Under the pieces are notes generated by a model. The model did not search any database and had not been told where the DNA came from. It was given only the letters and a program-made list of their open reading frames with translations. The position numbers and the translations under genes are program-made. From a virus, in IMG/VR virus record IMGVR_UViG_3300029286_000007, positions 1-34,013 of that record: DNA of 34,013 bases; one strand, given 5' to 3'. Below are positions 742 through 32,986 of the stretch, in pieces. Every line of letters begins with the position of its first letter. The stretch's first letter is position 1.

Positions 742-1636
742 TGTTCATCTCCATGTACGTTTCACGTGACACATACGGTATCGTGTCGCCTTTTGCATTA
801 CTTCTAAATGCAGGTTCAAATCCTTCAATAACTTCTATAACCGAACATCTGCAATTTATATCTTCCCCCGCATTTCCCGATAAACCCGGACCTTCCGCTG
901 ATACCTTACTACCATCTGCCGCTATCCATTCAAATTCTTCATCAATATTAACTTTCTCACCATCCAATTCGGAGTGTGTATCTCTTGTTCTCGAATCTAT
1001 TGAAGCAACCCACATCTTTTTTATCTTAACTCCCAAATCTTCGGCTTCTGCCATGCCAACTACCTTGCCCTCAATTAAAGCCCTGTGAGTTTCCGTTCTT
1101 ATAATTCTCGTTGCTTCATAAGCTCTTTTATTAAAAGTATCTTTTATATTCGTTCTTAACTGTGAAACACTTAAGCCCTGTGCCAAGCCACTACGAACCG
1201 CCGAAGTATACTGAAAAGCATCGTTTGTAATCATTTTAGCAATACGCTCGTTGATTGTAGCCCCGCCAACTAATTGATTCACAATAGCATCAAGCATTTC
1301 TTTTGTAGGTTTTGTAAAAGCTACATTTGTTCTTGACTGCATACTGACTTTATAGGCAACATCGTAATAACCGGCACTGTAAAGCTTAGAAACAAACTGT
1401 TTATCAACTGCATACAAGTCTTGCCCTAATATTTTTAACTCGGCTCTTAAATCTTTCTCAAAGTTAGCCAAGCGATTGTATTTAACTGCCTCTGCATAGT
1501 CCAATTTGCCATTCTTTTCGTATTTTTCATAGAAAGCCGATACTTTGCCCCTAATAGAGTCTAAGCCCTTTTTATAGGCTTTAGCGACTGCCCTATCGGC
1601 TTCTAATTCTAATAGTTCCAAATACGTTTTAGCCAT
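728..1636 (-). CDS. MuF-like minor capsid protein (SPP1 gp7-type)
   Basis: A 302-aa minor head protein. The C-terminal half carries the Mu gpF signature in order: RTETHRA (180-186), W209, D214 followed by RTR, H221, and the final NCRC (261-264). The N-terminal half (about 1-115) is helical and probably contacts the portal. In SPP1 the homologous gp7 binds the portal, enters the capsid in a few copies and influences DNA ejection. The domain here ends soon after NCRC, so no toxin domain is fused, unlike some MuF proteins. Its ATG shares bases with the portal stop (TAATG), which implies translational coupling. Confidence 0.9.
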   Translation of the reverse strand: MAKTYLELLELEADRAVAKAYKKGLDSIRGKVSAFYEKYEKNGKLDYAEAVKYNRLANFEKDLRAELKILGQDLYAVDKQFVSKLYSAGYYDVAYKVSMQSRTNVAFTKPTKEMLDAIVNQLVGGATINERIAKMITNDAFQYTSAVRSGLAQGLSVSQLRTNIKDTFNKRAYEATRIIRTETHRALIEGKVVGMAEAEDLGVKIKKMWVASIDSRTRDTHSELDGEKVNIDEEFEWIAADGSKVSAEGPGLSGNAGEDINCRCSVIEVIEGFEPAFRSNAKGDTIPYVSRETYMEMNNVKL

Positions 1637-3075
1637 TATTCCTCTACACTCTCATCTTCGCTATCGTTATTCATATTATCCAAATCAATTGGAGTCTGCT
1701 CTAACTGTTTCCTGATTATTTCATCATCTGCATTTTTTACGATTGATAAATTCTCAAATAAAGTTCTATCTGAAACAATCCCTTTCAAATTAGCTGCTAC
1801 TTGTGATTCTTGCAACATTTCAACCGGCAAATTGCGGTCAAACTGTATGTTTATCATTGATTCGTTTAAGGAAATACCTATTTTATTCCAAGCACTTGCT
1901 AAAACTTTAAACTGATAATTCAAAGCCTTTTTAAACTTAGCAATTTTTATGCTACCTTTGTTTTCAAGCGACAATAAAGCCCACTTTCTTGCTTCGCCAC
2001 TTGCTCCGCTACCTGTAAACGTTTCTGATGTAACGTCAACTGATTTTGAAAATCTATATATATTTTTTGTTGCTCTGTCTAAATGAGAGTCTGTAAATTC
2101 TTTATTTATTTGTTTTGTCAGATATTCCATTTTATCGGTTGCTTCCATTTGAAAAACACCGGCTGCTTTTGCTTTTTTAATATCTGCGGTTGACAGTGTA
2201 ATCCCATAAGTAACCAAATATGCCAATCTAAAAGCTTCAATTTCATTCTGATTATCTGAAAAAGACCTGTCATAAGCATCAATCAGCTCTTCAACCTTTT
2301 CAAAGTCGCCCTGTTTGTTTACGTTATTCATAACTTCAAACAATGGCACATAATCAAAATTATGCAGTTGAGGCTCTCTGTTTTTTATAAAGTTTTGGAA
2401 TGAATAATCCGATAAATAATAATAAACATATTGCTTATCGTAAAATTCTGCCTGATATTTTTTCCTCAAAGTTCCCTGACTGTCAGTTTCCCAAATAGCA
2501 TAAAAACGGACCGAATAATCAAGTTCGCCTGTTGACGGATTATAAACAAATACACATTCGGTTGGATCAATGTTAACGACTCTGTAATCAGGATAACCGC
2601 TGAGAGTTTTGTTTAAACCAACATAACATAATCTTGCCCCGTGTCCACAAACTGATTGGAAAATGCCTGTCTCAAAATCGGTATCGTCAAATTGATTGAC
2701 TTCTAAAAACTCATCAAAGAAATCGGTATCTTTTTTAAATGCTGCCGACTTCTGCCCGTCTATATATCTCTCGGGCTTGATTGTGTACTTAATCGGATTG
2801 CCTAAAATATAAGCCGTTCCGGTATCAACAATGTCGCCTCGAAAATCGTTATTGATTTTATTATTGATTTGGTCTAGTGCACTCGTTGTTCTTGATTGGA
2901 TTGGTAGACTTGTTCCCTGATAGCGTAAAAACAAATTCTCTTCGATAAATCTTCTCGGTCTTGAACTTAACCATAAATCAGATAACATCGCAGAAGTAAT
3001 CGCACCCTCAGCAGATTTTATTTCTGCATAAAACTTAGTGATTGAATAAGTCTGTGATAATATATCTAAAAGCAT
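1636..3075 (-). CDS. portal protein (SPP1 gp6 family)
   Basis: A 479-aa portal, the usual size for SPP1-type portals, which form the dodecameric DNA gate at one capsid vertex and dock the terminase. The stretch at about 71-98 (NKINNDFRGDIVDTGTAYIL followed by GNPI) matches the family signature 'N..V....k.iVd...sYllGkPi'. Its stop overlaps the MuF ATG by one base, and its start overlaps the TerL stop the same way (TAATG). The extreme C-terminus, residues 471-479, is DSEDESVEE. That acidic-serine tag recurs in other virion proteins of this phage and lies past the conserved portal core. Confidence 0.93.
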   Translation of the reverse strand: MLLDILSQTYSITKFYAEIKSAEGAITSAMLSDLWLSSRPRRFIEENLFLRYQGTSLPIQSRTTSALDQINNKINNDFRGDIVDTGTAYILGNPIKYTIKPERYIDGQKSAAFKKDTDFFDEFLEVNQFDDTDFETGIFQSVCGHGARLCYVGLNKTLSGYPDYRVVNIDPTECVFVYNPSTGELDYSVRFYAIWETDSQGTLRKKYQAEFYDKQYVYYYLSDYSFQNFIKNREPQLHNFDYVPLFEVMNNVNKQGDFEKVEELIDAYDRSFSDNQNEIEAFRLAYLVTYGITLSTADIKKAKAAGVFQMEATDKMEYLTKQINKEFTDSHLDRATKNIYRFSKSVDVTSETFTGSGASGEARKWALLSLENKGSIKIAKFKKALNYQFKVLASAWNKIGISLNESMINIQFDRNLPVEMLQESQVAANLKGIVSDRTLFENLSIVKNADDEIIRKQLEQTPIDLDNMNNDSEDESVEE

Positions 3076-4280
3076 TATGCTACTCTCCTTAAATGAGAAT
3101 GTATGCCATATCTTTCAGCATCTGAACTGTGGTCATCTTGCTTGATTGGTGCATCAATGCCTAATTTCTGTGCTTTCTTATCCCACGCATACGATGATTT
3201 TTCTCTTATCAATTCCTTACAACAGCTTAAAACTTTATAATTGCCTCTCGCTATAAACTTTGAAACTGTCTTTATCCCTGATAAAACATCGTTATCTGCT
3301 GACCTGAAATAGCCAAAACTCTTTGTTCTTAATTCTAATTTTAACGAACTTGCCGACGGGTCAATGTAGCCATACTGCACATCAAAACCGTTTGTAAAAT
3401 CGGCATAATCTCTGACATATTCATCATCGGTTTTCTGCCTGCCTGATTTTACCGCATCGTAGTAATATTGCTTGACTGCTCTGACCTGATTGCCCTTTAC
3501 TGCAAATAATATAAAAGTACACACGGAAGCAGTCGCATAATCTATCGATGTAAAATAATATTCAGGTATAAAATCTAACTCTTCGATAATGTTTATTTCA
3601 TCACTCCACATATCGTAAATGCTGCCTTCGGCAATCGCCCACAATCCGTCAATATATCTTTTTTTGTAAACGCCGGAATATTCTCTCTTTAAGTTTTCTA
3701 TAAACTCAGGACTTAAAAAACATTTACCATCGTCAAGTGTAAAAGTCAAACGATATTTTTGTATATTTGGATTGTCGATGAAATCTTGTTTGAAATAGTG
3801 ATAAGGACTTTCAGGATTTAAAAAATTGTCACTCATTGCACCGGGTGCGGAAAGTCTTGCTTGTAATTGCTTGTGGAAGTTTTCAGGATATAAAGCTGCT
3901 TCGTCATTGAACGAATATTTTATTGTCAAACCCTGTGCCTTAGATGCCGACTTCTCATCGTTTGCCGGTAGTGCTAAAAACCTTTGCCCGAAAATATAAC
4001 ACTCGCCTGTTTTATAATTCAAATCCGAAACGTATTGATGACCATACATTTCTTGCAGTGGCATTATCGTATTTCTCACGATAGTTTTTTCAGTCTTGCC
4101 GCATAAAGTACAAAAACCCTCGACGCCTTTAAATTGTTTTATTCTCTTAGGAAGTAAGAAAAAACCACCTTTTGATTTACCGCTTCTAACTGCACCGTCA
4201 AAAATATTACAACGAGCATTAGCTTCGGTTAGCATCTTCGCTTGCTTTGGAGACATAATGAATTTTTTATTGCTGCTCAT
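3075..4280 (-). CDS. terL: terminase large subunit (ATPase/nuclease)
   Basis: A 401-aa packaging motor. The N-terminal ATPase has a Walker A GAVRSGKS (29-36) and a Walker B ending YSFNDEA (122-128), with the catalytic Glu after Asp. The C-terminal RNase H-like nuclease has its acidic residues at D247 (SIDYA), D307 (YIDPSA) and D387 (SSDAERYG). The length fits short PBSX-type large terminases. It cuts concatemeric DNA and pumps it through the portal encoded next. The start is preceded by AAGGAACAAA inside the end of terS, and the two genes overlap by 14 nt. Confidence 0.95.
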   Translation of the reverse strand: MSSNKKFIMSPKQAKMLTEANARCNIFDGAVRSGKSKGGFFLLPKRIKQFKGVEGFCTLCGKTEKTIVRNTIMPLQEMYGHQYVSDLNYKTGECYIFGQRFLALPANDEKSASKAQGLTIKYSFNDEAALYPENFHKQLQARLSAPGAMSDNFLNPESPYHYFKQDFIDNPNIQKYRLTFTLDDGKCFLSPEFIENLKREYSGVYKKRYIDGLWAIAEGSIYDMWSDEINIIEELDFIPEYYFTSIDYATASVCTFILFAVKGNQVRAVKQYYYDAVKSGRQKTDDEYVRDYADFTNGFDVQYGYIDPSASSLKLELRTKSFGYFRSADNDVLSGIKTVSKFIARGNYKVLSCCKELIREKSSYAWDKKAQKLGIDAPIKQDDHSSDAERYGIHSHLRRVA

Positions 4281-4731
4281 TTTGTTCCTTTGCGAGTTCA
4301 GATCCTTCTTCTTTTGATTCGTTTGATTCTTCGTCTAAAATTTCATTTGCTTTATTATCAAGCGATTCGATAAGCTGATCCAACTTCTCGCCGGCATCTG
4401 TAATGCTTTCCTTCGGCTTTTCGCCGATTGTATCTCTGATAACTTGAAAAGCTTTTAAATCTATTTCGTCTAAATTGCCGTTATTTACACGACTCAAGGC
4501 ATTGGCTATAAGTTTATAACTCCAAGCTGTTTTTTTACTGACAACCTTACCGTCGTGCTCAATGCTTTCGTCTAAAATATTTTCCATTATTTCTTTAAAA
4601 AGTGCTTTTTGTCTTTTTGCTTCACCGGAAGCTTTGCCGCCTTTTATGGCAATCTGTTTCATTTCTTCGGGGGTTCTGTTTTGAAAACTGCCGTCTTTTA
4701 AGTTTTCAAGTGAGTTCGGATTAACCGCCAT
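4267..4731 (-). CDS. terS: terminase small subunit (probable)
   Basis: I choose the start MAVNPNSLENLK because AGGAG lies eight bases upstream, giving 154 aa. An upstream in-frame ATG (4759-4761) lies in the terminator stem and T-tract and has no ribosome binding site. The N-terminus ('NPNSLENLK..', '...GGKASGEAKR') resembles small terminase or DUF5681-like DNA-binding proteins placed directly before TerL. The middle (about 55-110) is helical. The C-terminus is very acidic and contains ESNESKEE at 135-142, matching the tag in the virion proteins. It is the first gene of the late unit, behind its own promoter and terminator. Confidence 0.75.
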   Translation of the reverse strand: MAVNPNSLENLKDGSFQNRTPEEMKQIAIKGGKASGEAKRQKALFKEIMENILDESIEHDGKVVSKKTAWSYKLIANALSRVNNGNLDEIDLKAFQVIRDTIGEKPKESITDAGEKLDQLIESLDNKANEILDEESNESKEEGSELAKEQNEQQ

Positions 4732-4922: not shown

Positions 4923-5507
4923 TTAAATCTCGCTTTTTACAGTCTCTTTTGCTAAGTTTTCCAATCGTTTAATATTTTCTTGATTTGGCAATTCTTTCGG
5001 CTCTGAAATAAACTCAAGCATTTTACCGCCGTTTTTAAGGTCATCTTTGAAAATTCGGCATAAGTTGTTATACTCACGAATAAAGTTGCTTTTAATTACC
5101 GTGTTCATATTTTCCGTTGTGCTTTCGTATTCCCATTCAATCAACGTATGAGGGTTTCCTAAAACCTTTTTTATAATCGGATCTAATTCTTCAAAGGCGT
5201 CGTTTGTTGTTTTTGGAATATCGGGATGTGATTTTTTCATTGCAAATCTGACTTGATTCCATGCAGTTGCCGAGTCGATAAAAACATCATCCGGGACAAG
5301 TAAATCTTTTATTTTTGCTATCAATCCATTTTGGAATAATTGTTTTTCCGTCGTCATAAGTTTTTTGATTGCATTATTAACTTTTAAATATTCATCTTTT
5401 TTAAAACAATCTGCCCATATGTTTATAATTATATCCGTATCTCCTTCAAATTTTACACCTATGCCTTTCAACACTGATAAAATTTTGATAGTATCTTCTC
5501 TCGTCAT
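4923..5507 (-). CDS. replication protein, possible helicase loader/inhibitor (G39P-like)
   Basis: A 194-aa soluble, mainly helical protein. The N-terminus (MTREDTIKILSVLKG..., then 'IINIWADCFKKDEY...VNNAIKKLM' and a Lys/Ile segment near residue 65) has the layout of the small G39P/DnaB-loader-inhibitor family found beside replication initiators in Gram-positive phages. No ATPase motif is visible, so it is not a DnaC-type loader. Its ATG overlaps the stop of the preceding replication gene (ATGA), and it is the last gene before the late promoter. The assignment rests on pattern and position. An unrelated replication-associated protein remains possible. Confidence 0.45.
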   Translation of the reverse strand: MTREDTIKILSVLKGIGVKFEGDTDIIINIWADCFKKDEYLKVNNAIKKLMTTEKQLFQNGLIAKIKDLLVPDDVFIDSATAWNQVRFAMKKSHPDIPKTTNDAFEELDPIIKKVLGNPHTLIEWEYESTTENMNTVIKSNFIREYNNLCRIFKDDLKNGGKMLEFISEPKELPNQENIKRLENLAKETVKSEI

Positions 5508-6214
5508 AGATTTGTCCTCTCTTCATTTAATTTTTCCAAGAATTCGTTTTTAAATGGTTTTTTAACTTCTTTTGTTTTTCTATCCCAATTACGCAAAGTC
5601 GCTTTCCAATCTTTCATTGGTACTTTTCCTACTTTCCAACCGTTGCTTTCGTAGTGGTCTTTAAATATTTCAGGGTTTACTGAAAGCTTTTCTTGAGTTA
5701 TATAATTTTTAATTTCAAGCAAGGATGGTTTCACAAAATTCACAGAGATGTGTCTTTTAGTAGTTACTTCTTTTTTATTAACATCTTCTTTTAAAACAAC
5801 ATCATCCTTTAAATCAACATCAACATCAACTGCAACATCTACTTCTACTTCCTCTTTATAGTTATGTTTGTTATCCCTTGTTATTTTTGTTATGTCAGAA
5901 TAACATTTGTTATTTTTGTTATTATTGATTGATTTTTCAATGTGTTTTTTGTGATTTTGCCATCTTTTGTCCATACCAATTTTACCCGCTTCACTCCTTT
6001 TTGTCTGTATTTCGTTGTACTTTTGGTTATCTATTTTAAATTGGTTTTTGATAAAAGAAAATGCCATTTTTATTTCATTTGTTAGTTCAATTTCTTTGCC
6101 ATTTACCTGATATTCAAATATTGCCCTAAATAATAATCCTAGTTTATCATTTGGAATATCTTTTAAAATTTCATAATAACTTGTATAAATTATAAATCCC
6201 TTTTTTTCTATCAT
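5504..6214 (-). CDS. phage replication initiation protein (DUF6291-type N-terminus)
   Basis: A 236-aa protein with two parts. Residues 1-75 (GFIIYTSYYEILKDIP... LFRAIFEYQ... AFSFIKNQF) match DUF6291-like N-termini of phage replisome organisers, and the next segment (RSEAGKIGMDKRWQNHKK) is the basic linker common in such proteins. Residues about 165-222 (IKNYITQEKLSVNPEIFKDH... MKDWKATLRNW) form the usual C-terminal WKxxLRNW domain. Between them is a low-complexity stretch of alternating Val and Asp (about 123-140). It would recognise the origin and recruit the host helicase. No origin repeat is obvious inside the gene. Confidence 0.7.
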   Translation of the reverse strand: MIEKKGFIIYTSYYEILKDIPNDKLGLLFRAIFEYQVNGKEIELTNEIKMAFSFIKNQFKIDNQKYNEIQTKRSEAGKIGMDKRWQNHKKHIEKSINNNKNNKCYSDITKITRDNKHNYKEEVEVDVAVDVDVDLKDDVVLKEDVNKKEVTTKRHISVNFVKPSLLEIKNYITQEKLSVNPEIFKDHYESNGWKVGKVPMKDWKATLRNWDRKTKEVKKPFKNEFLEKLNEERTNL

Positions 6215-6780: not shown

Positions 6781-7503
6781 TCATCTCTCCCACCTGCTTT
6801 TATTTGGATAATTCTCTTTTAAAAACTCTACAATCCCGCCTGATATAACATTCCCGCTAATGCTAAAAATATCTCGACCTTTTATCGCAAGTTCAATTTC
6901 TTGTTTAGATATTATTTTTTTAATTTTACAATCAGATATATATTTCCCTGCTACTTCAAAATTATTAAGATAGCAGCTTCTCGGCAACAATCCTTTTTGT
7001 TTGTCGTTAAAATCAATGAATTTAGTAAACTTATATGCAAATTCATAAAATTTATGACGGTTATAAATTATTGGACAATGCACTTCGAAATTCTTAACAG
7101 GTTTATCTAAACTTTTCAATATTTGTTTTGTAAATAATAATGATCGTGTATGTTTATTATTTACAGTAAACGCTTCCGGTATAACTTCTGCCCTGTAATA
7201 AAAAGGACAGGTTGATATATCAACATTTTTAATAAAAAAATTATCATCATAATTTAATAAAATATCATCTGAAATATCGGTATTTTGAAAAGTCCATAAA
7301 ACTTTTAGAAAATGATTTATGCAACCGATATGTTTATCAGGTTGATAATTATAAATAACATTATCTTTCATAAAGTCAGGTTTTTCGCCGGTTAAAAACA
7401 ATCTATTGTAGTTTTTACCGTGTTTTTCTAATGACCTTAACGAATATCTTAACTCGTTATTATTCCAACGACTGCCTGAACCTAAAATATACAATATGTC
7501 CAT
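6781..7503 (-). CDS. Stealth-type sugar(-phosphate) transferase, paralog B
   Basis: I choose the start MDILYILGSG (240 aa). A longer frame adds 28 residues lying inside the GT8 gene, without matching the paralog. The protein follows the Stealth family order: 'DILYILGSGSRW' (CR1-like), 'NELRYSLRSLEK...RLFLTGEKPDF' (CR2-like, about 17-44), then 'LNYDDNFF' (about 84-91), the Asp-Asp expected in the active site, and 'FEVHCPIIYN' (about 142-151). Stealth enzymes transfer hexose-1-phosphate in capsule synthesis. It is clearly paralogous to the protein at 8615-9334. There is no membrane segment, so it acts in the cytoplasm. The acceptor is unknown. Confidence 0.72.
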   Translation of the reverse strand: MDILYILGSGSRWNNNELRYSLRSLEKHGKNYNRLFLTGEKPDFMKDNVIYNYQPDKHIGCINHFLKVLWTFQNTDISDDILLNYDDNFFIKNVDISTCPFYYRAEVIPEAFTVNNKHTRSLLFTKQILKSLDKPVKNFEVHCPIIYNRHKFYEFAYKFTKFIDFNDKQKGLLPRSCYLNNFEVAGKYISDCKIKKIISKQEIELAIKGRDIFSISGNVISGGIVEFLKENYPNKSRWER

Positions 7504-7504
7504 T

Positions 7505-8170
7505 TTATAATCCCATTTTTTGTAAATCAACCGCCATAAATCTTTTAGTTCTTGCCGGATAGTGTAGAATATAAGCATCCTTATCATAAATTGGATTTTT
7601 ATAATAATTACCTCGACCCTTACAATAATGATATTTTTTGTCTATGTAAGTCAACTTATCCTGATAATTCAAATTTATTAGTCCTTCTTCATGCCACCAG
7701 AAGCCCTGTTTATAATCCATATTTTTTAAACATTTATTGCAAAAGTCATCTTCTCTTAAAGCTTTCAAATTCATTAACATAAAGCCCATTAGTGCATGGC
7801 TTTTATTATTAGGATATTTTTGTGGGAGATAATGTTCAGTAACACAAATATATTGACAGTCCATATTCCAAATATCGTCAAGTGGCTTTTGGCATAAAGT
7901 ATCGCAATCCATATAAATAATCTTATCAAATGGCAGTGTTGGTAGTAATAATTTGTAATAAGTTAAAGCGGTCAGTCGGTCATTTGGATTAAACCTTAAT
8001 TGTGATAAAAACTCTTGCGGTGGGTTAAATACAATATTTTCATATTGAATATCAAGTGGTTTATCTGATACTACAAGTATTTCTGCCTGTGGATTGTGTT
8101 TTAAAACCGATTTTGCCGACATATTCAGATACTGAATATAGTTTTGGTCAGTGATATAAACGATTTTCAT
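7505..8170 (-). CDS. GT8-family glycosyltransferase (LgtC-like)
   Basis: A 221-aa retaining glycosyltransferase. The N-terminus 'MKIVYITDQNYIQYLNMSAKS' is the start of a GT-A fold as in glycogenin/LgtC proteins. The metal-binding DxD is D88-C-D90 within 'KIIYMDCDTL'. 'HALMGFMLMNL' (about 125-135) is the usual 'fNaGvmliNl' segment in altered form, and 'HEEGLINL' (160-167) is the 'DQdilN' position. 'ILHYPARTKRF' (201-211) matches the C-terminal 'iiHf.g..KPW'. It would move a sugar from a nucleotide-sugar onto an unknown acceptor. Two bases separate it from the next Stealth gene. Confidence 0.85.
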   Translation of the reverse strand: MKIVYITDQNYIQYLNMSAKSVLKHNPQAEILVVSDKPLDIQYENIVFNPPQEFLSQLRFNPNDRLTALTYYKLLLPTLPFDKIIYMDCDTLCQKPLDDIWNMDCQYICVTEHYLPQKYPNNKSHALMGFMLMNLKALREDDFCNKCLKNMDYKQGFWWHEEGLINLNYQDKLTYIDKKYHYCKGRGNYYKNPIYDKDAYILHYPARTKRFMAVDLQKMGL

Positions 8171-8171
8171 T

Positions 8172-8615
8172 TCAAATCTCCATTTTGTTTTTATTTGTTG
8201 GTTTAAAAATACAAACCATACTATCGTGCATCCCGCATTTATTTGATACTACTTGACCAAAAGTATTTATTCCCTCAAATTTAACTCTGCCTTTTAAAAA
8301 GCGTATTTCACAATGTTGCAAAATAATTTCGTGAAATATTTTTGTTGAAGTTGAGACAGGCAATAACATCACTGTTTTTTTACCTTTTTTATATTCCTCA
8401 TATGCTTTATAAATAAAAGCCACTTTCAATTTACGACTATACGGCGGATTTAAAAAATTTACCCCCCCCCATTCAACATTTAACCCGTCCCATTTTGTTA
8501 TATCGTGATTTAAAGGACAAGGATCAAAATCAAAATTAAATTCGTTATTTAATTTATCATATAAATCTTTGGGAGTTTTCCAATTATCGTTATTTTCTAA
8601 ATTTCTATTTTTCAT
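8172..8615 (-). CDS. phage DNA N6-adenine methyltransferase (Dam-like), G9 tract in gene
   Basis: I choose the start MKNRNLENND (147 aa), because GGGAG lies six bases upstream and the ATG overlaps the upstream stop (TGATG). The pattern 'NWKTPKDLYDKLNNEF-FDFDPCP' (11-33) and the catalytic motif NPPYS (56-60) are those of the phage Dam family (PF05869), which methylates adenine N6. The family is often single-domain, as here. Codons 48-52 (E-W-G-G-V) contain nine consecutive G on the coding strand (8462-8470), exceptional in this AT-rich genome and just before the catalytic motif. A one-base slip would remove activity. It lies inside the glycosyltransferase island. Confidence 0.85.
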   Translation of the reverse strand: MKNRNLENNDNWKTPKDLYDKLNNEFNFDFDPCPLNHDITKWDGLNVEWGGVNFLNPPYSRKLKVAFIYKAYEEYKKGKKTVMLLPVSTSTKIFHEIILQHCEIRFLKGRVKFEGINTFGQVVSNKCGMHDSMVCIFKPTNKNKMEI

Positions 8616-9334
8616 CAAATCTCCCATTTAGATTTTACAACAAATGCATTCTGTAAAAATTCTTTTTCATCTGCCCTTGCCGAATTATAACCTGAAAACA
8701 AATCCAATCTTTTAATAAATCTTGCAATCGGAACTCTTTTATTTAATAGTTTATTCTCCCTTTTATAAACTTTATTTGGAACATTGTGCCAATTACCGTA
8801 CAAATCCCTTAATGATAGTCCTAATGGCGATAATTTAAAGCCTTCTGCGAATAAAGGTATCAATGCTTGAAGTTTAGTTTTATTGTAAATTATTGGATAG
8901 TGTGGCTTAAAATCAAAGATAGGCTTATTGTGTTTTAATAAAAATTCCCTAGTTCTTAAAGCCATTTCGTTGAAAGTATTGTTATTGGCATAGACTGTCG
9001 CTATCTCGTTTCTTTTGAAATAATAAGGTATATTTCTTAAACTTATATATCTTAACAAATAAAAATCGTCATTAAATAAAATGAAATTTTCAGATACATC
9101 CGAGTTTGAGCACACATAAAGCAATTTTAAGAAAACATTGTAATCCGGCACAGCATATTTGTCCTGATGTACCAAATGAATAATCTTATTGTAATCCAAA
9201 AATTCAGGTTTACCGCCAACCAAGAAAACTCTGTCATAATTTCTGCCAAATCTCTCTAAACTCCGCAGAGAATATCTTATTTCGTTATCTTGCCAGTCGC
9301 TAGGTTCATTTTTTAAAACATAGACTATATCCAT
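8615..9334 (-). CDS. Stealth-type sugar(-phosphate) transferase, paralog A
   Basis: A 239-aa paralog of the protein at 6781-7503, with the same order of motifs: 'MDIVYVLKNEPSDW' (CR1-like), 'NEIRYSLRSLERFGRNYDRV' (about 17-36), 'ILFNDDFYLL' (about 85-94) with the Asp-Asp, and 'FKPHYPIIYN' (about 142-151). The variant 'FNDDfyl' is closer to the canonical Stealth 'NDD' than the other copy. AAGGA precedes the ATG. Two diverged copies in one small genome suggest two different donors, acceptors or linkages. No membrane or signal segment is seen. A function in polysaccharide, protein or DNA decoration cannot be told from sequence alone. Confidence 0.75.
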   Translation of the reverse strand: MDIVYVLKNEPSDWQDNEIRYSLRSLERFGRNYDRVFLVGGKPEFLDYNKIIHLVHQDKYAVPDYNVFLKLLYVCSNSDVSENFILFNDDFYLLRYISLRNIPYYFKRNEIATVYANNNTFNEMALRTREFLLKHNKPIFDFKPHYPIIYNKTKLQALIPLFAEGFKLSPLGLSLRDLYGNWHNVPNKVYKRENKLLNKRVPIARFIKRLDLFSGYNSARADEKEFLQNAFVVKSKWEI

Positions 9335-9336
9335 TT

Positions 9337-10230
9337 TTAGTCCTTGTAAATAATATTTTTAGCCATCATTTGATGTAATTTCTGATTGTATAATTTCTCG
9401 CCACAAAACGAAACAATTAAGTCTTTGTTTGAATTAAATATTTCTAAACATTTTCTATAAATATCCTTAGTCATTGAAAATTCTTTTATGTGAGGATTCA
9501 ATAACTCTCCTAACTCAAAAGGTGCTACAATGCCAAATCTTGCTTTTAAGTTTCTACAAACTATATTTGCGTGGTCAGTTGCTATTTGGTCTGTGTTTAG
9601 TGAACTATCGCTGCTCGTATGTTTACGATATTTGAGTAAAATTTCAGGTATTATATCTTGCTTAATATCCCATCTGCGAGAAGTCCACTCAAAGTCTTTT
9701 GCTACTTTTGCCACTTTGTCGGTTTGGTCTAAGTCAATTTTAACGCGTCTACGGGTTGCCAAAGTCGGTATCATTATATGCTGTCTGAAAACTAATTGAC
9801 GTTGCAGTTCTTCGTTTTTCATTGTCCAACAGACTTTTATTCCGTTGGAAGCACCAAAAGTTATTATCCCGCCCGAACAAGCGTCTAGTTCAGGATTTTG
9901 GGTTAAATACTTTACTTGAGTTTCTATTCTGTGAGGTAGAGATACATCGTCATCGTGGTGATGTATTATTATTTCACCCTGTGAGTTATCTATGAGATAT
10001 TGCCATTGGTCGTCTTTGTTGTATTCGCCGAGATGTTTTATTCGTTTATCGTTTGGAAACCAGTCTTTTGTTGAGACGTTAGAATCGTGGTCGCAAATAA
10101 TAAGTTCCCAGTTTTGATATGTTTGATTAAAAAGTCCGTCTAAGAGTTCAGATATAAATTCTTTTTTACTATTATGGCAAGATAAAATAACTGAGACCAA
10201 TGGAATATCTGTTAGGTTTTTTATTTTCAT
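9337..10230 (-). CDS. GT2-family glycosyltransferase
   Basis: A 297-aa inverting GT-A enzyme. 'PLVSVILSCHNSKKEFISEL' (10-29) is the typical nucleotide-sugar-binding start, 'NQTYQNWELIICDHDSNVST' (35-54) continues the Rossmann-like half, and 'IIIHHHDDDVSLPHR' (87-101) supplies the DxD-type metal site at 93-95. 'DFEWTSR' (about 178-184) stands where GT2 enzymes have the catalytic 'ED..l..R'. The last 80 residues are helical and may bind the acceptor. There is no transmembrane helix, unlike GT2 enzymes that work on lipid-linked sugars, so a cytoplasmic acceptor is likely. It is the first gene of the sugar-transferase island. Confidence 0.85.
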   Translation of the reverse strand: MKIKNLTDIPLVSVILSCHNSKKEFISELLDGLFNQTYQNWELIICDHDSNVSTKDWFPNDKRIKHLGEYNKDDQWQYLIDNSQGEIIIHHHDDDVSLPHRIETQVKYLTQNPELDACSGGIITFGASNGIKVCWTMKNEELQRQLVFRQHIMIPTLATRRRVKIDLDQTDKVAKVAKDFEWTSRRWDIKQDIIPEILLKYRKHTSSDSSLNTDQIATDHANIVCRNLKARFGIVAPFELGELLNPHIKEFSMTKDIYRKCLEIFNSNKDLIVSFCGEKLYNQKLHQMMAKNIIYKD

Positions 10231-11056: not shown

Positions 11057-11671
11057 TTAAAACAATTTTAACTGCTTGTTGTAATTCTCTAACCTTTGAC
11101 AACTTGCTTCGTAATACTGTTTATCTTTTTCTATACAAATAAAGTTTCTTTTTAATTCTGAACAGGCTATTGCAGTCGTTCCTGAACCACTAAAACAGTC
11201 TAAAACTAAATCGTTTTTGTTTGAATAATTAGATAAACACCATTTAATTAATTTTATGGGTTTTTGTGTAGGGTGTATTCTTTGTAATTTTTCAGAATTG
11301 CATTTATATATCTTTGCATTTTTATCAAAAGAAGTCCAAGCCAACTCGCACATAGCAAGACTAAAATTTTCACTTATTTGTTTATCCCAAACAATAAAAC
11401 ATCTTGAAGTCGGAAAATTAAAATAATTTCCACCCCGAATAATCTGATTTTTTGATATTCTAAATATTTCATTAAAATATAAATCTATTGGTTTTTTATC
11501 CCAACCCTTATCACAAATGCTATTAAAATTCATTTTAGCGCTTTTGCCACCTTTAAATTTTGTGTCTATCCCATAAGGCGGGTCGGTCAGTACCAAATCA
11601 ATACTCTTGTCAGGCAGTTGTTTCATAAATTCTAGGCAGTCAGCATTATGTATCTTGTTTATTTCTAGCAT
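11057..11671 (-). CDS. DNA methyltransferase (N4/N6, beta-class, PF01555-like)
   Basis: I choose the start MLEINKIHNADC, since AAAGGAT stands eight bases upstream; a longer frame adds seven residues that contain this site. The 204-aa protein has the catalytic motif DPPYGID (30-36) near the N-terminus, HPTQKP (133-138) and the SAM-binding FSGSGTT (160-166) near the C-terminus, i.e. the beta order. It methylates exocyclic amino groups of adenine or cytosine in DNA. No restriction endonuclease gene adjoins it, so it is an orphan phage enzyme, probably protecting phage DNA from host restriction. The target-recognition region between residues 40 and 90 is short. Confidence 0.92.
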   Translation of the reverse strand: MLEINKIHNADCLEFMKQLPDKSIDLVLTDPPYGIDTKFKGGKSAKMNFNSICDKGWDKKPIDLYFNEIFRISKNQIIRGGNYFNFPTSRCFIVWDKQISENFSLAMCELAWTSFDKNAKIYKCNSEKLQRIHPTQKPIKLIKWCLSNYSNKNDLVLDCFSGSGTTAIACSELKRNFICIEKDKQYYEASCQRLENYNKQLKLF

Positions 11672-11717
11672 TTTTTTATCCTTTTGATACAATCTATCCT
11701 AAAACCCAAAATATCGC

Positions 11718-15960: not shown

Positions 15961-16638
15961 TTATATGTTAGGCAATTGCAATGGTGGTTCAATGTCTTTT
16001 TGTATATAATCCCAAAACTTCAATTCTTCCTGTAATAAATATTCAATATCTTCTTTTACGTTTTCTCTCCAGTAAATTTTATGGATCGTTTTAGTCTCGA
16101 CCTTTTTAAATTCAAATGGCACAATTTCGTTTATGTTTTTATTCGGATAAACAAATTTTAACTGTGCTTTAATAATCGCAAAATCGTAAGCAGTAATTAA
16201 AAGATAATGTAATAATTGTATATAGTAATTTTGCGGAATATTGTCATAATTCCATTTTTCTTTATGTTGCGAACTTAAAATATTAGTTGTTTTAGCTTCA
16301 AAGATACCTCTTAAATTTGTTTCTTTGTGTGTAAGTTTTCCGTCTAAAGAACCCAACAGGAAAGGATATTTGGCATGGCAAATAATATCATATTGTTTAT
16401 GTTCTAATTCATAATCAGGATAATCTAAAACAAACAATTCTCTTAAATATTTTTCAGATTCTACTCCATATTTTACATAAGGCTTACCAGATATATCTTC
16501 TGGTATTGTTTTGCCTGTTTTTTCTCTCCAAAGTTGGACATTTGTTTTATAAGGGTTTTCGCCAACAATAGAAGAGGCATCGCTACCACCTATGCCCTTT
16601 TGCCTTAATTCAAGCCATTGCTGACGGTTTAATGCCAT
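15961..16638 (-). CDS. YqaJ-family 5'-3' exonuclease
   Basis: A 225-aa lambda-exonuclease-fold protein. It has 'QQWLELRQKGIGGSDASSIV' (6-25) with GGSDAS, 'YVKYGVESEKYLRELF' (54-69) with the conserved Glu near 60, 'GSLDG' (96-100, D99 a metal ligand), 'FEAKT' (113-117, E114 and K116) and 'YYIQLLHYLL' (138-147, Q141). This set forms the PD-(D/E)xK active site. It resects double-strand ends for RecT. Its ATG shares bases with the stop of the acyl carrier protein gene (TAATG), so the two are coupled. Confidence 0.93.
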   Translation of the reverse strand: MALNRQQWLELRQKGIGGSDASSIVGENPYKTNVQLWREKTGKTIPEDISGKPYVKYGVESEKYLRELFVLDYPDYELEHKQYDIICHAKYPFLLGSLDGKLTHKETNLRGIFEAKTTNILSSQHKEKWNYDNIPQNYYIQLLHYLLITAYDFAIIKAQLKFVYPNKNINEIVPFEFKKVETKTIHKIYWRENVKEDIEYLLQEELKFWDYIQKDIEPPLQLPNI

Positions 16639-16880
16639 TATTTAACCACCTTTTCAATATAATCAACGATGTCTTTTATGGTTTTAAATTTAGCAAGTTC
16701 TTCTTCCGATATGTCAACATGAAACTCTTCTTCAAAAATCATTCCGAGTTCTAACGTATCAAGCGAATCTAATCCGATGTCATCTTTTAAAATTGATTCT
16801 TCTTCAATAACTCTATCTTCGCAACATACCTGCCCTGCCACTAATTTTTTTACTTTTTGCAAAATCTCTGTTCTGGTCAT
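16638..16880 (-). CDS. acpP: acyl carrier protein
   Basis: An 80-aa acidic four-helix protein. 'IGLDSLDTLELGMIFEEEF' (35-53) contains the DSL motif with Ser39, the serine that receives 4'-phosphopantetheine. Length and layout match bacterial fatty-acid ACP. C19-C20 in helix I are unusual. A phage copy could divert acyl chains to a phage product, or bind ACP-dependent host enzymes (ACP contacts many proteins). No phage acyltransferase or ketosynthase is seen nearby. It is translationally coupled to the exonuclease gene and has its own AGGAG. Confidence 0.92.
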   Translation of the reverse strand: MTRTEILQKVKKLVAGQVCCEDRVIEEESILKDDIGLDSLDTLELGMIFEEEFHVDISEEELAKFKTIKDIVDYIEKVVK

Positions 16881-23400: not shown

Positions 23401-23982
23401 TTAAGCCTCCAACTCATCAATATTTACAAGAACTTTTCTGTTTTTAGCTCTTACACAAAGAATTGAACTGCTAACCGTATCAACAACGTATTCAATAAGT
23501 TCGCGTTCAGCAACTTCAATTCCTATTTCGCCGGTATTACTTGCTATAAAATCAATCGTTACAATATCTCCGTCATTTGGAGTACCTGTAACTGAAATCC
23601 CATAGTCAGACAATGTAACATCAACTCCGTTAAAGGTCCAACTAGGTTCTATTGACTCGCCTGACTCATCTGATTCTAAACTGCCAATTCCTGAATCGTA
23701 AATAAAATCGTAAACACCTGATTCAAATACTATCGACTCAAATGTTGTTTTTACAACGGATGCCGCACTAATACCTGTACTTGTACCAATACTTGCAGTT
23801 GCCACACTTAAAGACGGTAGCCTTACAAATTCGTCTACAAAAAGATTGTTCGGACTTTTACACTGTATTTGATATTTTTTCGCTGCATTAAAAGCAAAAG
23901 CTGACTGACCGTAAATTTGTGCCTTAATTAAATCTTCTAACTTTGCCCATGTTGTTGAAATTTCTACTTGTCCTAAATACAT
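23401..23982 (-). CDS. tail/fibre-associated structural protein with acidic-serine tag
   Basis: A 193-aa beta-rich protein, not recognised as a named family. The segment 'WTFNGVDVTLSDYGISVTG' (115-133) followed by 'PNDGDIVTIDF' is a common phage fibre or baseplate domain. Just before it, residues 103-110 are ESDESGES, in a loop where related proteins usually have a short linker. The gene lies between two fibre genes, two nucleotides before the large fibre. It is probably an adaptor or minor baseplate component. The tag matches those in portal, connector, tail tube and distal tail proteins. Confidence 0.7.
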   Translation of the reverse strand: MYLGQVEISTTWAKLEDLIKAQIYGQSAFAFNAAKKYQIQCKSPNNLFVDEFVRLPSLSVATASIGTSTGISAASVVKTTFESIVFESGVYDFIYDSGIGSLESDESGESIEPSWTFNGVDVTLSDYGISVTGTPNDGDIVTIDFIASNTGEIGIEVAERELIEYVVDTVSSSILCVRAKNRKVLVNIDELEA

Positions 23983-24845: not shown

Positions 24846-27209
24846 TTATTTCTTTATATCAAATTCTGTACTTAATTCATAGTCAAATTCTTTACCCTGT
24901 GCTATCGGATAATCTGAGGCTTCGGTATAATCTATCAAATCAAGAGTTGTGATTTTTCTATTAAAATCAGTGTAAATACCGACGACCTTACATTTCATAT
25001 AATAAGTACCTGTTTCAAGCCATTTGGTATAATCTGTAAAACTTTTATCAGTCAATAAATTATTATTATGTTTTACTCTAACATAATCGCCGAGTTCCAA
25101 TTCTAAATCAATTAAAACATCTATTGACAAAGTCAACCTTAATGTTGATAATTCAGCATATACCGTCGGTGCTATTGCATAGGCTAAATCCACATTGTCG
25201 GCAGGTAGCAATTGCGAACTATCAATAAGTTTTTCTCTATTGCCGTATTTATCTTTATTGGTCGGTGCGGTTTCGCCCTCTGTGTCGCTATCAACAATTT
25301 TATTAAAGCCACCGTAATTTACTACAACTCTTGTAACAAGTCTGTCAATATCAAAAGCAACCTTTGACATATTAAATATTTTGTCATCATTAAATTCTTT
25401 TATCTCGGCAGTTTTTTTTCTGTTACGAAAGAAAAACTTATCATCGGCATCAAAACCTATTTCATAGGCACTCATTGCAGCCAATTCAGATATTGCACCG
25501 AATACCGACATATTTGTTAAATTGCAAACACCAAGCGGTATATTTTGTGTTAAAAATGCCCATAACTTAACATTAGATAATTCATAATTATTACCAAAAC
25601 TCGCAGTATTTTTAATTATAAAATCTACACTATCGTAATTTAAAGTCATCGTGGTGCCTAAAGAATATTCTATAAAATCAGTCCAGTCGGTTAAGGTATT
25701 GCCATAACTGACTGATATGCTAGGAGTTGGTACACCATCTGTTGATACTGTTGCATTTAATCTGTCAAACCCTGCAAAAGATACTTCACTGTTTTGATTT
25801 TGAAATCTACAATATTGATAATCAATCCAATCTTCTGCGGTATCTAAAGGATTTGTTGAACGTTTTACTGCTATCTCTTTAATTTCTGCTTTTGTAGAGT
25901 TAAAAGCGGTTTCTATAAATAAATAGTTAGCTGTTATTCCTTCGGCTGTACTCCAAATAGATACACCATTTTTATATAAACGAGTTTCACTATCAGAAAA
26001 AGAAACATAATAAACATCATTTAAGTTTCCGGTTGTAATTGTTGAATATGCCGAAGCCTTAAAACTTACTGCAATATCATAAGCACCGGAAGTTCCTCGC
26101 ATAAATCTGACAGCGACTTCATTATTTGTAGCAGTTCCGATCTTAACTCTTAAAATTGATATACCTAAATCAAGTTGAGGTATAAGTTGAGTAACTTTAA
26201 ATTTAAATGAACCGTAAGTCATATTACAGCCCCAAGTTGCAGTTGCCATTTGACCGGGAGTTCCGAAATAAAATGAAGTATTTGAATTAACGATACCGCT
26301 ATGATATTCGGCGATACTATCATCGGTAGTTCTATATAACCAAGCCCAAGCACTGCTCAATACGGTTTCGTTGGCAACTCTTGAAGCATTTTGAAATATT
26401 ACCGGATCAACAATCCTGTGTGCCGAATCTATATCAGCGACATCAAGCAAATCTTCTACAAGTTCATCAATTTGTAACCCCTTTGCCCAGTAAATATAAC
26501 TTGCAAATATTTTTTCGCCTGCCAAAAGTTCAGAGTCTAAGGTTATTATTGCACCGAGTGAATATTCATTTAATTGAGATATTGAATAATCGGTTTTTTC
26601 AACAAGTTCAACTGCCGTGCCAAGAGTTGTACCTTTTAAAACTTTACTCACTCTGCCAACCGCAGAATTTGTAGTAACACAATGAGTTGAATCGGTTATA
26701 CTGACTTCTTCATCGGTTATAGATGTTGATACACCCTCAGCCGATACATTATCAAGCCAATCAAGCCTGCTTAAAGCCCTAATTTCAACGAGATTATCAT
26801 CTGGTCGATAGTTAGGACTCTCGGTCAAATATCCTGTAAAGCATTTGATATAATCATCCAAAGTTGGACTGCCTATAAAATATTCAATTTTACTACCATA
26901 GATAATATAAGGCTCTGCAAAATAACCGTCATATTTACCCTGCCAAAATTGATTTCTATCGTTTACTAATATTAAAGTCAAATTTGCGACTTTCCAAACA
27001 TCAGCTTCATCTGTGTCGAGTGAAAATTTAATTTTACCATTTGTATTATTTGCTTCAAGCTCGGTTGTAATTTCAATCGGAGTTGTTTCTATTATATAGG
27101 CGGAAGTTCCAACATCCCATTTTCTGCGATATAGTAAAACCTTATGTTTCAAATCTGATAAGTTTTTATTTTCAAGTAATGATTTTAATTCATCGCTAAT
27201 AACTCGCAT
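24846..27209 (-). CDS. tail hub / tail-associated baseplate protein (Tal-like)
   Basis: I choose the start MRVISDELKSL (787 aa) with GAGG eight bases upstream; the longer frame adds six residues. The N-terminal part ('IIETTPIEITTELE', 'LDTDEADVWKVANLTLILVN') and the C-terminal 'LELGDYVRVKHNN' with 'KITTLDLIDY' resemble hub proteins of siphoviruses. The middle (about 285-460, 'FYFGTPGQMATATWGCNMTY' to 'YYVSFSDSETRLYKNGVSIW') looks like an inserted concanavalin-like lectin domain. It would close the tail tip and touch the cell surface. It overlaps the upstream gene by 14 nt. Confidence 0.75.
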   Translation of the reverse strand: MRVISDELKSLLENKNLSDLKHKVLLYRRKWDVGTSAYIIETTPIEITTELEANNTNGKIKFSLDTDEADVWKVANLTLILVNDRNQFWQGKYDGYFAEPYIIYGSKIEYFIGSPTLDDYIKCFTGYLTESPNYRPDDNLVEIRALSRLDWLDNVSAEGVSTSITDEEVSITDSTHCVTTNSAVGRVSKVLKGTTLGTAVELVEKTDYSISQLNEYSLGAIITLDSELLAGEKIFASYIYWAKGLQIDELVEDLLDVADIDSAHRIVDPVIFQNASRVANETVLSSAWAWLYRTTDDSIAEYHSGIVNSNTSFYFGTPGQMATATWGCNMTYGSFKFKVTQLIPQLDLGISILRVKIGTATNNEVAVRFMRGTSGAYDIAVSFKASAYSTITTGNLNDVYYVSFSDSETRLYKNGVSIWSTAEGITANYLFIETAFNSTKAEIKEIAVKRSTNPLDTAEDWIDYQYCRFQNQNSEVSFAGFDRLNATVSTDGVPTPSISVSYGNTLTDWTDFIEYSLGTTMTLNYDSVDFIIKNTASFGNNYELSNVKLWAFLTQNIPLGVCNLTNMSVFGAISELAAMSAYEIGFDADDKFFFRNRKKTAEIKEFNDDKIFNMSKVAFDIDRLVTRVVVNYGGFNKIVDSDTEGETAPTNKDKYGNREKLIDSSQLLPADNVDLAYAIAPTVYAELSTLRLTLSIDVLIDLELELGDYVRVKHNNNLLTDKSFTDYTKWLETGTYYMKCKVVGIYTDFNRKITTLDLIDYTEASDYPIAQGKEFDYELSTEFDIKK

Positions 27210-27987
27210 TTTCTTGTGCCTCTGCATTTAAAGTTAAATTATAAAGTCCACTCCAACGATTAATATCAAAATTTAAATCTTTAAGGCTGATAGCAACTTC
27301 ATAAACGTCTCTTTCTTCAAAATCTTCCCATGGGATTACAGTAACAAATCCGTCTGCAATAATAAAAGATTTCAATAAATCATATTGTGTTTTAGAATTG
27401 TTTTGTATTTGGATAGTTGCTGCCCATTTGTAATAATCAGTCCAAGTTATTAAACGACCGCCATAAGTTCTTACCTGTCCGTCTTGTACACTGTTTCTTG
27501 CGGTTGTTTCTGTAGTAGCAACCAAATCAATTATGCTTTCACAAACCCTTAATTGTCCTATGTAAATATATGTCCCTTCAAATACGTCAGTTATCTCAAA
27601 TGTAATTTTCGTCGTGTCAACTTTGCTATTAAGATAAATTCTTATTTCGTGTTCATCATTATTTGTTAAAGTATATAAAACAGTTTCAACACCTAAAGAA
27701 CTTAAATATTTAACTGTCATGCTTTTAATATTAGTGTTTTGAATAATTATAGTGTCAATATTTCTACTTATATAATCAGAATATTTATCTTTAAACCAAC
27801 AAACAATAACTCCGTTTGTATCTACAAATTGAAAAAGCTCATTTGAATCATAAGGCTTAAAATCGCAAAGTTTCGTTCCGTCTGATTCTTCTGCGGACTC
27901 ATCCGACTCTTCCGATAACTCAAATAAACATTTGTCATTAAGATAATTTTGAGATAAAAATTTTATTTCTTGGTCTATAGCTTTCAT
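27196..27987 (-). CDS. distal tail protein (Dit-like, probable) with acidic-serine tag
   Basis: A 263-aa protein between tape measure and hub, the Dit position. Beta-rich segments ('CESIIDLVATTETTARNSVQ', 'GGRLITWTDYYKWAATIQIQ', 'YDLLKSFIIADGFVTVIPWE', 'VYEVAISLKDLNFDINRWSG') fit a tail-tip ring protein. Near the N-terminus residues 27-34 are ESDESAEE, followed by SDGT, in a loop flanked by C20 and C41. The loop is acidic and exposed by prediction. The assignment rests on position and fold-like pattern, with no specific motif. Confidence 0.65.
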   Translation of the reverse strand: MKAIDQEIKFLSQNYLNDKCLFELSEESDESAEESDGTKLCDFKPYDSNELFQFVDTNGVIVCWFKDKYSDYISRNIDTIIIQNTNIKSMTVKYLSSLGVETVLYTLTNNDEHEIRIYLNSKVDTTKITFEITDVFEGTYIYIGQLRVCESIIDLVATTETTARNSVQDGQVRTYGGRLITWTDYYKWAATIQIQNNSKTQYDLLKSFIIADGFVTVIPWEDFEERDVYEVAISLKDLNFDINRWSGLYNLTLNAEAQENASY

Positions 27988-30930: not shown

Positions 30931-31401
30931 TTATACAGATTCGTCGGATTCGTCAGTTGCCGGAGCATATGTAATCACACCTGATACTCTGATTGTAGCA
31001 GTAAAAGGAACGAGACCACCCTCTGTTAAATCGCCCATTCTTACACAGTTTTTAACATAGCCTGAACCTGTGATATTTGCAGCTACTGCTTCAGTTCCTT
31101 TCAAAGGAGCTTCAATTATAAATTCTATATCGGAACCTGCCGTGAAAGCTGAATAAACTGCGGTCTGCCCTGCATCCGTGTCTACGAAATTGCCTGATAT
31201 TTCAAACTCGCCATTATCTACCGGTCCTAAAATAAATTCTTTAGCTGTACCGGGAGAATCCAAAGTTGAAACATCTATCTCGTCACTTTGTGGCGATGGC
31301 TGACCTACCGTTGTTAAGTCGCCGACATAAGTATAAGTACTACCACCAACAGCTCTTATACCAAATTTAGAGCCTCTTGCCATTCTTGCCTTGATTGTCA
31401 T
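30931..31401 (-). CDS. major tail tube protein
   Basis: A 156-aa protein with the tube-protein pattern: 'MARGSKFGIRAVGGSTYTYV' (7-26), 'DEIDVSTLDSPGTAKEFILG' (40-59), 'DNGEFEISGNFVDTDAGQTA' and 'GGLVPFTATIRVSGVITYAP'. The fold is a beta sandwich that stacks as hexamers to form the tail tube. The C-terminus beyond the fold (residues 149-156) is TDESDESV, an acidic-serine tail that would be exposed hundreds of times along the tail. GAGG precedes the ATG. Confidence 0.88.
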   Translation of the reverse strand: MTIKARMARGSKFGIRAVGGSTYTYVGDLTTVGQPSPQSDEIDVSTLDSPGTAKEFILGPVDNGEFEISGNFVDTDAGQTAVYSAFTAGSDIEFIIEAPLKGTEAVAANITGSGYVKNCVRMGDLTEGGLVPFTATIRVSGVITYAPATDESDESV

Positions 31402-32569: not shown

Positions 32570-32986
32570 TTATGCCTCTGTAAAAGTCATATATCTTTTA
32601 ATTTGACTAACAATATTTGCAGGATAATTAAAACGAAGTTCAGAGCTAAAAACTAAGGATTCGATATAACTGATTGAATGATCACCCCAACTTTCAGATT
32701 TAACTTCCTTACCTGCTACAACTGCTGTGCCTGTAACAACTACACTTGACGTTGATTTAATCTTATACATAACCATTTGTGCAGCCACTTCTTCCGAATT
32801 AACAGGATAAACTGTGTACTCTTCCAAAGATTCATCAGACTCGGCATCCTCAACTTCAAAGGGAGCATTTCTTATCGCTAAATAATTAGCTTCAACAATC
32901 GGAATAAAAAACGCTATTCTTGTGTCAAGTTCCGAGCCTGTGATATTAAAATAGTCTTTAACAAAATCAACTGTTACAATAGCCAT
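32570..32986 (-). CDS. head-tail connector (gp6/gp15-like) with acidic-serine insert
   Basis: A 138-aa helical connector. 'DFVKDYFNITGSELDTRIAF' (7-26) and 'NYLAIRNAPF' (34-43) are typical of gp6-like connectors, then 'YPVNSEEVAAQMVMYKI' (60-76), and the C-terminal 'INSQIKRYM'-type helix. Between them residues 49-56 are ESDESLEE, an extra acidic loop where relatives go directly to 'YPVGxE..A..M'. The protein binds under the portal. GAGGA precedes the ATG. Confidence 0.82.
   Translation of the reverse strand: MAIVTVDFVKDYFNITGSELDTRIAFFIPIVEANYLAIRNAPFEVEDAESDESLEEYTVYPVNSEEVAAQMVMYKIKSTSSVVVTGTAVVAGKEVKSESWGDHSISYIESLVFSSELRFNYPANIVSQIKRYMTFTEA

Follow-up and report, generated by a model that had tools for sequence, protein, structure and literature searches.

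What would a phage do with four sugar transferases, and which molecule would they modify? The question is raised by a 3450-base island in IMG/VR record IMGVR_UViG_3300029286_000007, whose 34,013 bases (the window throughout) form a complete phage genome with a 127-bp terminal repeat. An earlier note, made from the letters alone, had read the island as one GT2, one GT8 and two Stealth-like genes and suggested that they add sugar-phosphate to acidic, serine-rich tags on virion proteins. Stealth phosphotransferases have known roles in lysosomal sorting and in the capsules of pathogens, and the human relative GNPTAB starts the mannose-6-phosphate tag. Here we demonstrate the enzyme families, the fold, the catalytic residues and the operon layout of the island, its recurrence in phages, and the placement of Stealth genes in the head operons of other phages. 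We propose, at a probability of about 0.4, that the cassette is a mobile glycan-decoration kit with its product most likely on phage virion proteins.

All clear genes of the window lie on the minus strand, and the island is transcribed in the order GT2, Stealth B, a Dam-type methyltransferase absent from the earlier account, GT8 and Stealth A (Table 1). The position and families first given for the four transferases were correct, and the island indeed fills about a tenth of the genome. Adjacent genes of the island overlap by up to 13 bases or stand at most 2 bases apart, and it therefore looks like a single transcription unit; the open reading frame of Stealth A is listed to 7587, which adds a spurious 28-residue N-terminus, the likely start being at 7503, adjoining the GT8 stop. 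Upstream are replication and recombination genes (SSB, RecT, YqaJ), and downstream are two more replication-type genes and the terminase. A megablast search of the island region against cultured phages gave no matches.

The assignment of two proteins to the Stealth family is borne out by profile, fold and catalytic residues. The PHROG 7999 profile matches both over their full length (Stealth B, E 6e-23; Stealth A, E 1.8e-20), and a profile of 59 phage family members matches GNPTAB (E 3.4e-16) and CpsY (E 9e-8). For the AlphaFold2 models of Stealth B (pLDDT 91.5) and Stealth A (pLDDT 95.4), the first 13 PDB fold matches of each are Stealth phosphotransferases, of the CpsY/GNPTAB type in the case of Stealth B, and stand ahead of ordinary glycosyltransferases. 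Structure prediction and a hidden Markov model search for regions CR1 to CR4 had been suggested as checks. The fold and the homology to CR2 were upheld, but Pfam by itself is equivocal, with PF11380 (CR2) as the one match and scoring below its cut-off of 39.4 bits (Stealth B, E 2e-8, 34.8 bits; Stealth A, E 0.002, 18.7 bits); the CR1, CR3 and CR4 Pfam domains were undetected in both proteins. Profile matches and modelled folds place both in a compact, divergent Stealth subfamily, PHROG 7999.

The residues that matter in human GNPTAB (N406, D408, H956 and R986; PMC11418123) and in CpsY (N322, D324 and R419; PMC10668966) correspond, as mapped from profile alignments, to N88, D90, H145 and R176 of Stealth B, which also carries D89. 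The D-D pair, the CR3 histidine and the phosphate-binding arginine are kept in both window proteins; H145 is found in 76 of 76 aligned relatives, and R176 in 59, with lysine in 9. The catalytic motif is NDD in Stealth B and YDD in Stealth A. The CR4 tetrapeptide C-[LI]-N-D is not kept, an S-x-x-[DN]-like segment (SISG, SGYN) standing in its place, and the final FP..S..E part of CR4 alone aligns with the GNPTAB/CpsY-type enzymes. The window proteins share with human GNPTAB, M. tuberculosis CpsY and bacterial capsule polymerases the fold, the CR2 core, the D-D pair, the CR3 histidine and arginine and the C-terminal FP-x-x-S-x-[YFW]-E, but they are half as long and lack the spacer domains and the CR4 CLND, and Stealth A has YDD. 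Their predicted activity is the transfer of sugar-1-phosphate from a UDP-sugar. A recent duplication of Stealth A and B was rejected, as the two share 35-36% identity, are no closer to each other than to the proteins of loci L018 or L020 (L numbers denote the loci compared), and belong to different clades; degradation of Stealth A was also rejected, YDD being fixed in a 16-member clade with the histidine, the arginine and the D-D pair retained.

The calls of GT2 and GT8 were sound as well, both Pfam matches lying above cut-off with motif residues kept. GT2 scores 54.1 bits against PF00535 (cut-off 23.3) and has an acidic DXD-like pair, D94-D95, also present in L019; its nearest curated models are EpsE and TuaG, far under cut-off. 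In GT8, D88-x-D90 and the C-terminal metal-binding H203 are invariant across the window, L019 and L027, and the protein matches LgtC in the PDB at E 8e-6.

The compact 230-residue Stealth form is widespread in phages and has so far been filed as of unknown function: more than 531 relatives turned up when IMG/VR was scanned, and the best 80 loci were analysed. PHROG 7999 holds unnamed proteins of mycobacteriophages, Gordonia phages and one Microbacterium phage, among them Fionnbharthvirus gp6, Gordonia phage OneUp gp115 and Microbacterium phage A3Wally gp246. These members have the same conserved residues and match both window Stealth proteins over their full length; identity is 25-29%, and, unlike the window, the isolates whose regions were examined have a single copy with no annotated glycosyltransferase beside it. 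Tests are feasible in laboratory phages that have such a gene (Fionnbharthvirus, on M. smegmatis mc2 155). Within two genes of phage Stealth genes we found matches to GT1, GT4, GT2, rhamnosyltransferase, polysaccharide pyruvyl transferase, Gly_transf_sug, Caps_synth, sulfotransferase and methyltransferase families, and to portal and Mu F; acetyl transferases are also among the neighbours. Each set is known by its 25 commonest families; in an equal-size control set at least seven genes from Stealth these include no glycan family, though rarer ones may occur. No phage Stealth cassette was found in the open-access subset of the literature.

Used as single queries against viral contigs, Stealth B, GT2 and GT8 each gave no matches, and alignments were required. 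An alignment of the GT8 proteins of the window, L019 and L027 yielded 20 credible phage loci; after removal of repeats, Stealth lies within four genes of GT8 in 13 of the 17 contigs so found, and GT2 in 10 of 17. One more locus with GT2, GT8 and Stealth, L019/L154, came from an earlier scan. In L144, GT2, GT8 and a GT29-like domain are joined in one 652-residue protein that adjoins a Stealth gene, a direct sign that these three activities belong together. The GT8 relatives in these loci all have a GT29-like domain, either fused or in a separate gene nearby; the window has no such domain, but has a second, NDD-type Stealth gene not present in the other cassette loci. Every one of the 16 YDD Stealth sequences comes from a GT8 locus; together they make up a single clade (support 0.925) that contains Stealth A and leaves Stealth B outside. 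Most YDD loci were located via GT8, so the presence of GT8 is partly by construction; the sole YDD member of the Stealth-found set, L019, also has GT8 and GT2 independently of the GT8 search. The island is a conserved mobile phage cassette, and glycan assembly is close to certain as its function because the enzyme families, the neighbourhood and the L144 fusion all indicate it. The comparison of near with far neighbours and the recurrence of the cassette uphold the glycan-modifying role that had been proposed for the island. Its parts are ordinary and their combination unusual: it is a variant of phage glycan modification with a defined Stealth subtype.

The cassette also moves apart from the genes that encode the particle. 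TerL and MTP scans for close relatives gave L003 and L004/L136 alone, both contigs ending before the island. L004/L136 is 62-79% identical over most of the structural module, and L003 has the structural module of the window unchanged, with identical acidic serine tags. A recombination boundary lies inside the gene at 5504-6214 (L003:157-795), the C-terminal part being identical and the N-terminal part and the region upstream different; it marks a module swap next to the island. The most similar cassette is that of L143 (identity of GT2 64%, Stealth A 51% and GT8 45%; a replication gene 76%), and within the length of the contig its structural genes are untagged and unrelated to those of the window. 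Together, the L143 and L003 patterns argue that cassette and structural genes are exchanged separately.

In the scheme that we infer, which covers what the enzymes do, in which order, with which donor sugar and on which acceptor, GT2 and GT8 would use nucleotide sugars of the host to make or lengthen a short glycan, to which the two Stealth enzymes would add sugar-1-phosphate; the YDD-type enzyme might possibly add another sugar unit instead. The product would decorate virion proteins in late infection, where it may shield the particle or alter its surface. With virions as acceptor, the cassette would widen glycan shielding in phages to glycans linked through phosphate. Virion protein is our leading guess for the acceptor, with host glycan a close rival, and we favour it because other phages place Stealth between portal and capsid or protease genes. 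Four loci (L029, L030, L042, L061) have the Stealth gene flanked by a portal or minor-head gene and by the head protease; in L027, L037, L040 and L071 it is flanked by portal/minor-head genes and by scaffold/capsid genes. A homology-based count found head genes on both sides within two genes for 8 of 78 Stealth genes and for 7 of 766 other open reading frames, the Stealth cases coming from about two lineages, so that the counts overstate independence. This placement implies expression together with virion genes. Decoration of the virion by the island, as the earlier note had it, is thus possible; the site that it named fares otherwise, as described below.

The apparent absence of lysogeny genes fits a virion acceptor as well. 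By inspection, the open reading frames of the complete genome include no integrase-like or repressor-like large gene, and long-term lysogenic conversion is therefore unlikely. A precedent is given by Che8, Corndog and Myrna, in which phage transferases glycosylate capsid and tail-tube proteins (Freeman 2023, as cited in PMC12363180 and PMC11256854). The likeness lies in cytoplasmic sugar transferases encoded by the phage and in decoration by the phage itself; no Stealth enzyme is mentioned there, and virions are modified there, whereas for the window such decoration is a proposal.

Several observations weigh against the virion as acceptor and against the chemistry proposed. The cassette of the window sits outside the head operon, in the stretch between replication genes and terminase, and the head-operon cases, besides stemming from about two lineages, are single Stealth genes of the NDD type. 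The cassette moves independently of structural genes, which a generic or host acceptor fits equally. Both GT2 and GT8 look like enzymes for polysaccharides of the cell surface. Finally, Stealth A has tyrosine for the NDD asparagine, the loss of which cuts the activity of CpsY 200-500-fold (PMC10668966).

A more specific proposal, which we consider rather unlikely, is that GT2, GT8, a GT29-like cap and a dedicated YDD Stealth enzyme form a fixed modular pathway for a phosphodiester-linked glycan on virions, in which the window has swapped the GT29-like step for a second, NDD-type phosphotransferase. Such a pathway would give the first modification of a phage protein or particle by Stealth enzymes. 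The tie between the YDD subtype and a fixed GT2-GT8-GT29-like set makes it a concrete, testable pathway.

Much of the same evidence can be read as pointing to the host surface, and it is quite possible, if less probable than decoration of the virion, that the cassette modifies a host surface glycan (lipopolysaccharide, capsule or teichoic type) during infection, blocking competing phages or the adsorption of progeny to debris. The closest relations of GT2 are EpsE/TuaG-like and those of GT8 are lipopolysaccharide galactosyltransferases; CpsY is a capsule-type Stealth enzyme (PMC10668966). The pyruvyl, rhamnosyl, acetyl and sulfo transferases beside phage Stealth genes are typical of surface polysaccharides, and the cassette travels independently of virion genes. 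An alignment-based scan of bacterial genome contigs gave three Bacteroidota loci in metagenome-assembled genomes, the bacterial matches being in Bacteroidales/Chitinophagaceae. On the other hand, membrane proteins of the translocase, flippase or Gtr type are missing from the operon, the lack of an integrase-like gene would leave only a brief time for a change of the surface, and the Stealth genes between portal and capsid genes would be left unexplained. The serotype-converting gtr systems of temperate phages likewise consist of phage-borne sugar transferases, but the window has neither gtrA/gtrB-like membrane proteins nor an integrase-like gene.

The lack of membrane segments is real: no convincing one is present in any of the five island proteins (highest 19-residue hydropathy 1.24). 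The step from there to a cytoplasmic acceptor does not follow, because the Stealth polymerases of bacterial capsules, like many GT2 and GT8 enzymes of lipopolysaccharide, capsule and teichuronic acid synthesis, are soluble or peripheral too. The feature does not decide between the candidate acceptors.

The methyltransferases bring in a further candidate, DNA, which the cassette might glycosylate or hypermodify against restriction; we regard this as improbable. The Dam-like enzyme inside the island (phrog_111, E 3.5e-39; TIGR01712, E 3.5e-14, below cut-off) is accompanied by another N6/N4 methyltransferase nearby, Stealth adjoins Dam in L026 too, and one TET-associated glycosyltransferase lies near one GT8 locus. 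That transferase, however, is 1 of 92 neighbours; enzymes of sugar polymers surround the phage Stealth genes, the 25 commonest neighbour families include no base-hydroxylating one, and the Stealth enzymes whose function is known work on sugars. DNA modification is disfavoured because no base-modifying partner was seen: homologues of base hydroxylase, thymidylate synthase and hydroxymethylase were not found among the scanned window proteins, which covered part of the proteome, in agreement with the original remark that no base hydroxymethylase is seen.

The last candidate acceptor is the one first proposed, the serines of ESDES-like tags on portal, connector, tail tube and tail-tip proteins. 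The tags themselves are real. They form loop insertions or C-termini, and SDES occurs 4 times in the window proteome against 0.18 in shuffles, each time in a virion protein. They are written with different synonymous codons at each site, which indicates that they are selected or shared at the protein level. Their use by the Stealth enzymes is nevertheless very improbable, and a link between tags and transferases is not supported. The tags are absent at four homologous positions (connector, tail tube, Dit and portal) in L004/L136, the closest distinct relative; the alignment with its homologue of the fourth tagged protein covers the flanks of the tag region but not the region itself, and its tail tube (L004:7470-8168) carries an additional C-terminal domain in place of the TDESDESV of the window. 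In the transferase-bearing loci (80 Stealth plus GT8 loci, 460,000 residues) SDES is at chance level, with 9 seen and 7.8 expected by shuffling. Stealth genes are absent from all 37 loci with related portals, the L143 cassette adjoins untagged structural genes, and the modules move independently; across related phages, Stealth genes and tags are uncorrelated. We considered and rejected the idea that the tail-tube tag arose by fusion or by a frameshift that extends the protein, there being no room before the next gene.

Table 1. Positions of the features discussed; coordinates without a locus prefix refer to the window.
Feature	Position	Strand	Support or remark
GT2 glycosyltransferase, 297 aa, first cassette gene	9337-10230	-	PF00535 E 2.3e-14
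Stealth B, short Stealth phosphotransferase homologue, NDD type, 239 aa	8615-9334	-	PF11380, phrog_7999, fold
Dam-type N6-adenine DNA methyltransferase, 151 aa, within cassette	8172-8627	-	PF05869 E 1.8e-20
GT8 glycosyltransferase, 221 aa, single-domain	7505-8170	-	PF01501 E 7.9e-21, above cut-off
Stealth A, short Stealth homologue, YDD type, 240 aa, last cassette transferase	6781-7503	-	phrog_7999, fold
Second DNA methyltransferase, N6_N4_Mtase, CcrM-like	11057-11692	-	conserved with L027/L148 and L143
ESDES-like acidic serine tags, five virion proteins	32570-32986, 30931-31401, 27196-27987, 23401-23982, 1636-3075	-	
GT8 fused to GT29 (sialyltransferase)-like domain	L019:12606-13799, L143:7312-8496, L144:5930-7888		L144 also fused to GT2
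Stealth genes set among head genes	L061:4417-5127, L029:2300-3013, L071:4919-5569		flanked by portal and by protease or scaffold/capsid genes

Two observations fall outside the island. This 34-kb phage has a stand-alone acyl carrier protein gene at 16638-16880 on the minus strand, with a match to PF00550 (E 1.9e-11), a score above cut-off for NF002148 and a DSLD motif. In a distant relative, the TerL gene (L011:2369-4570) looks, by eye, to be split by an intein-like insert, which is overlapped by a homing-endonuclease-like open reading frame at 3706-4416.

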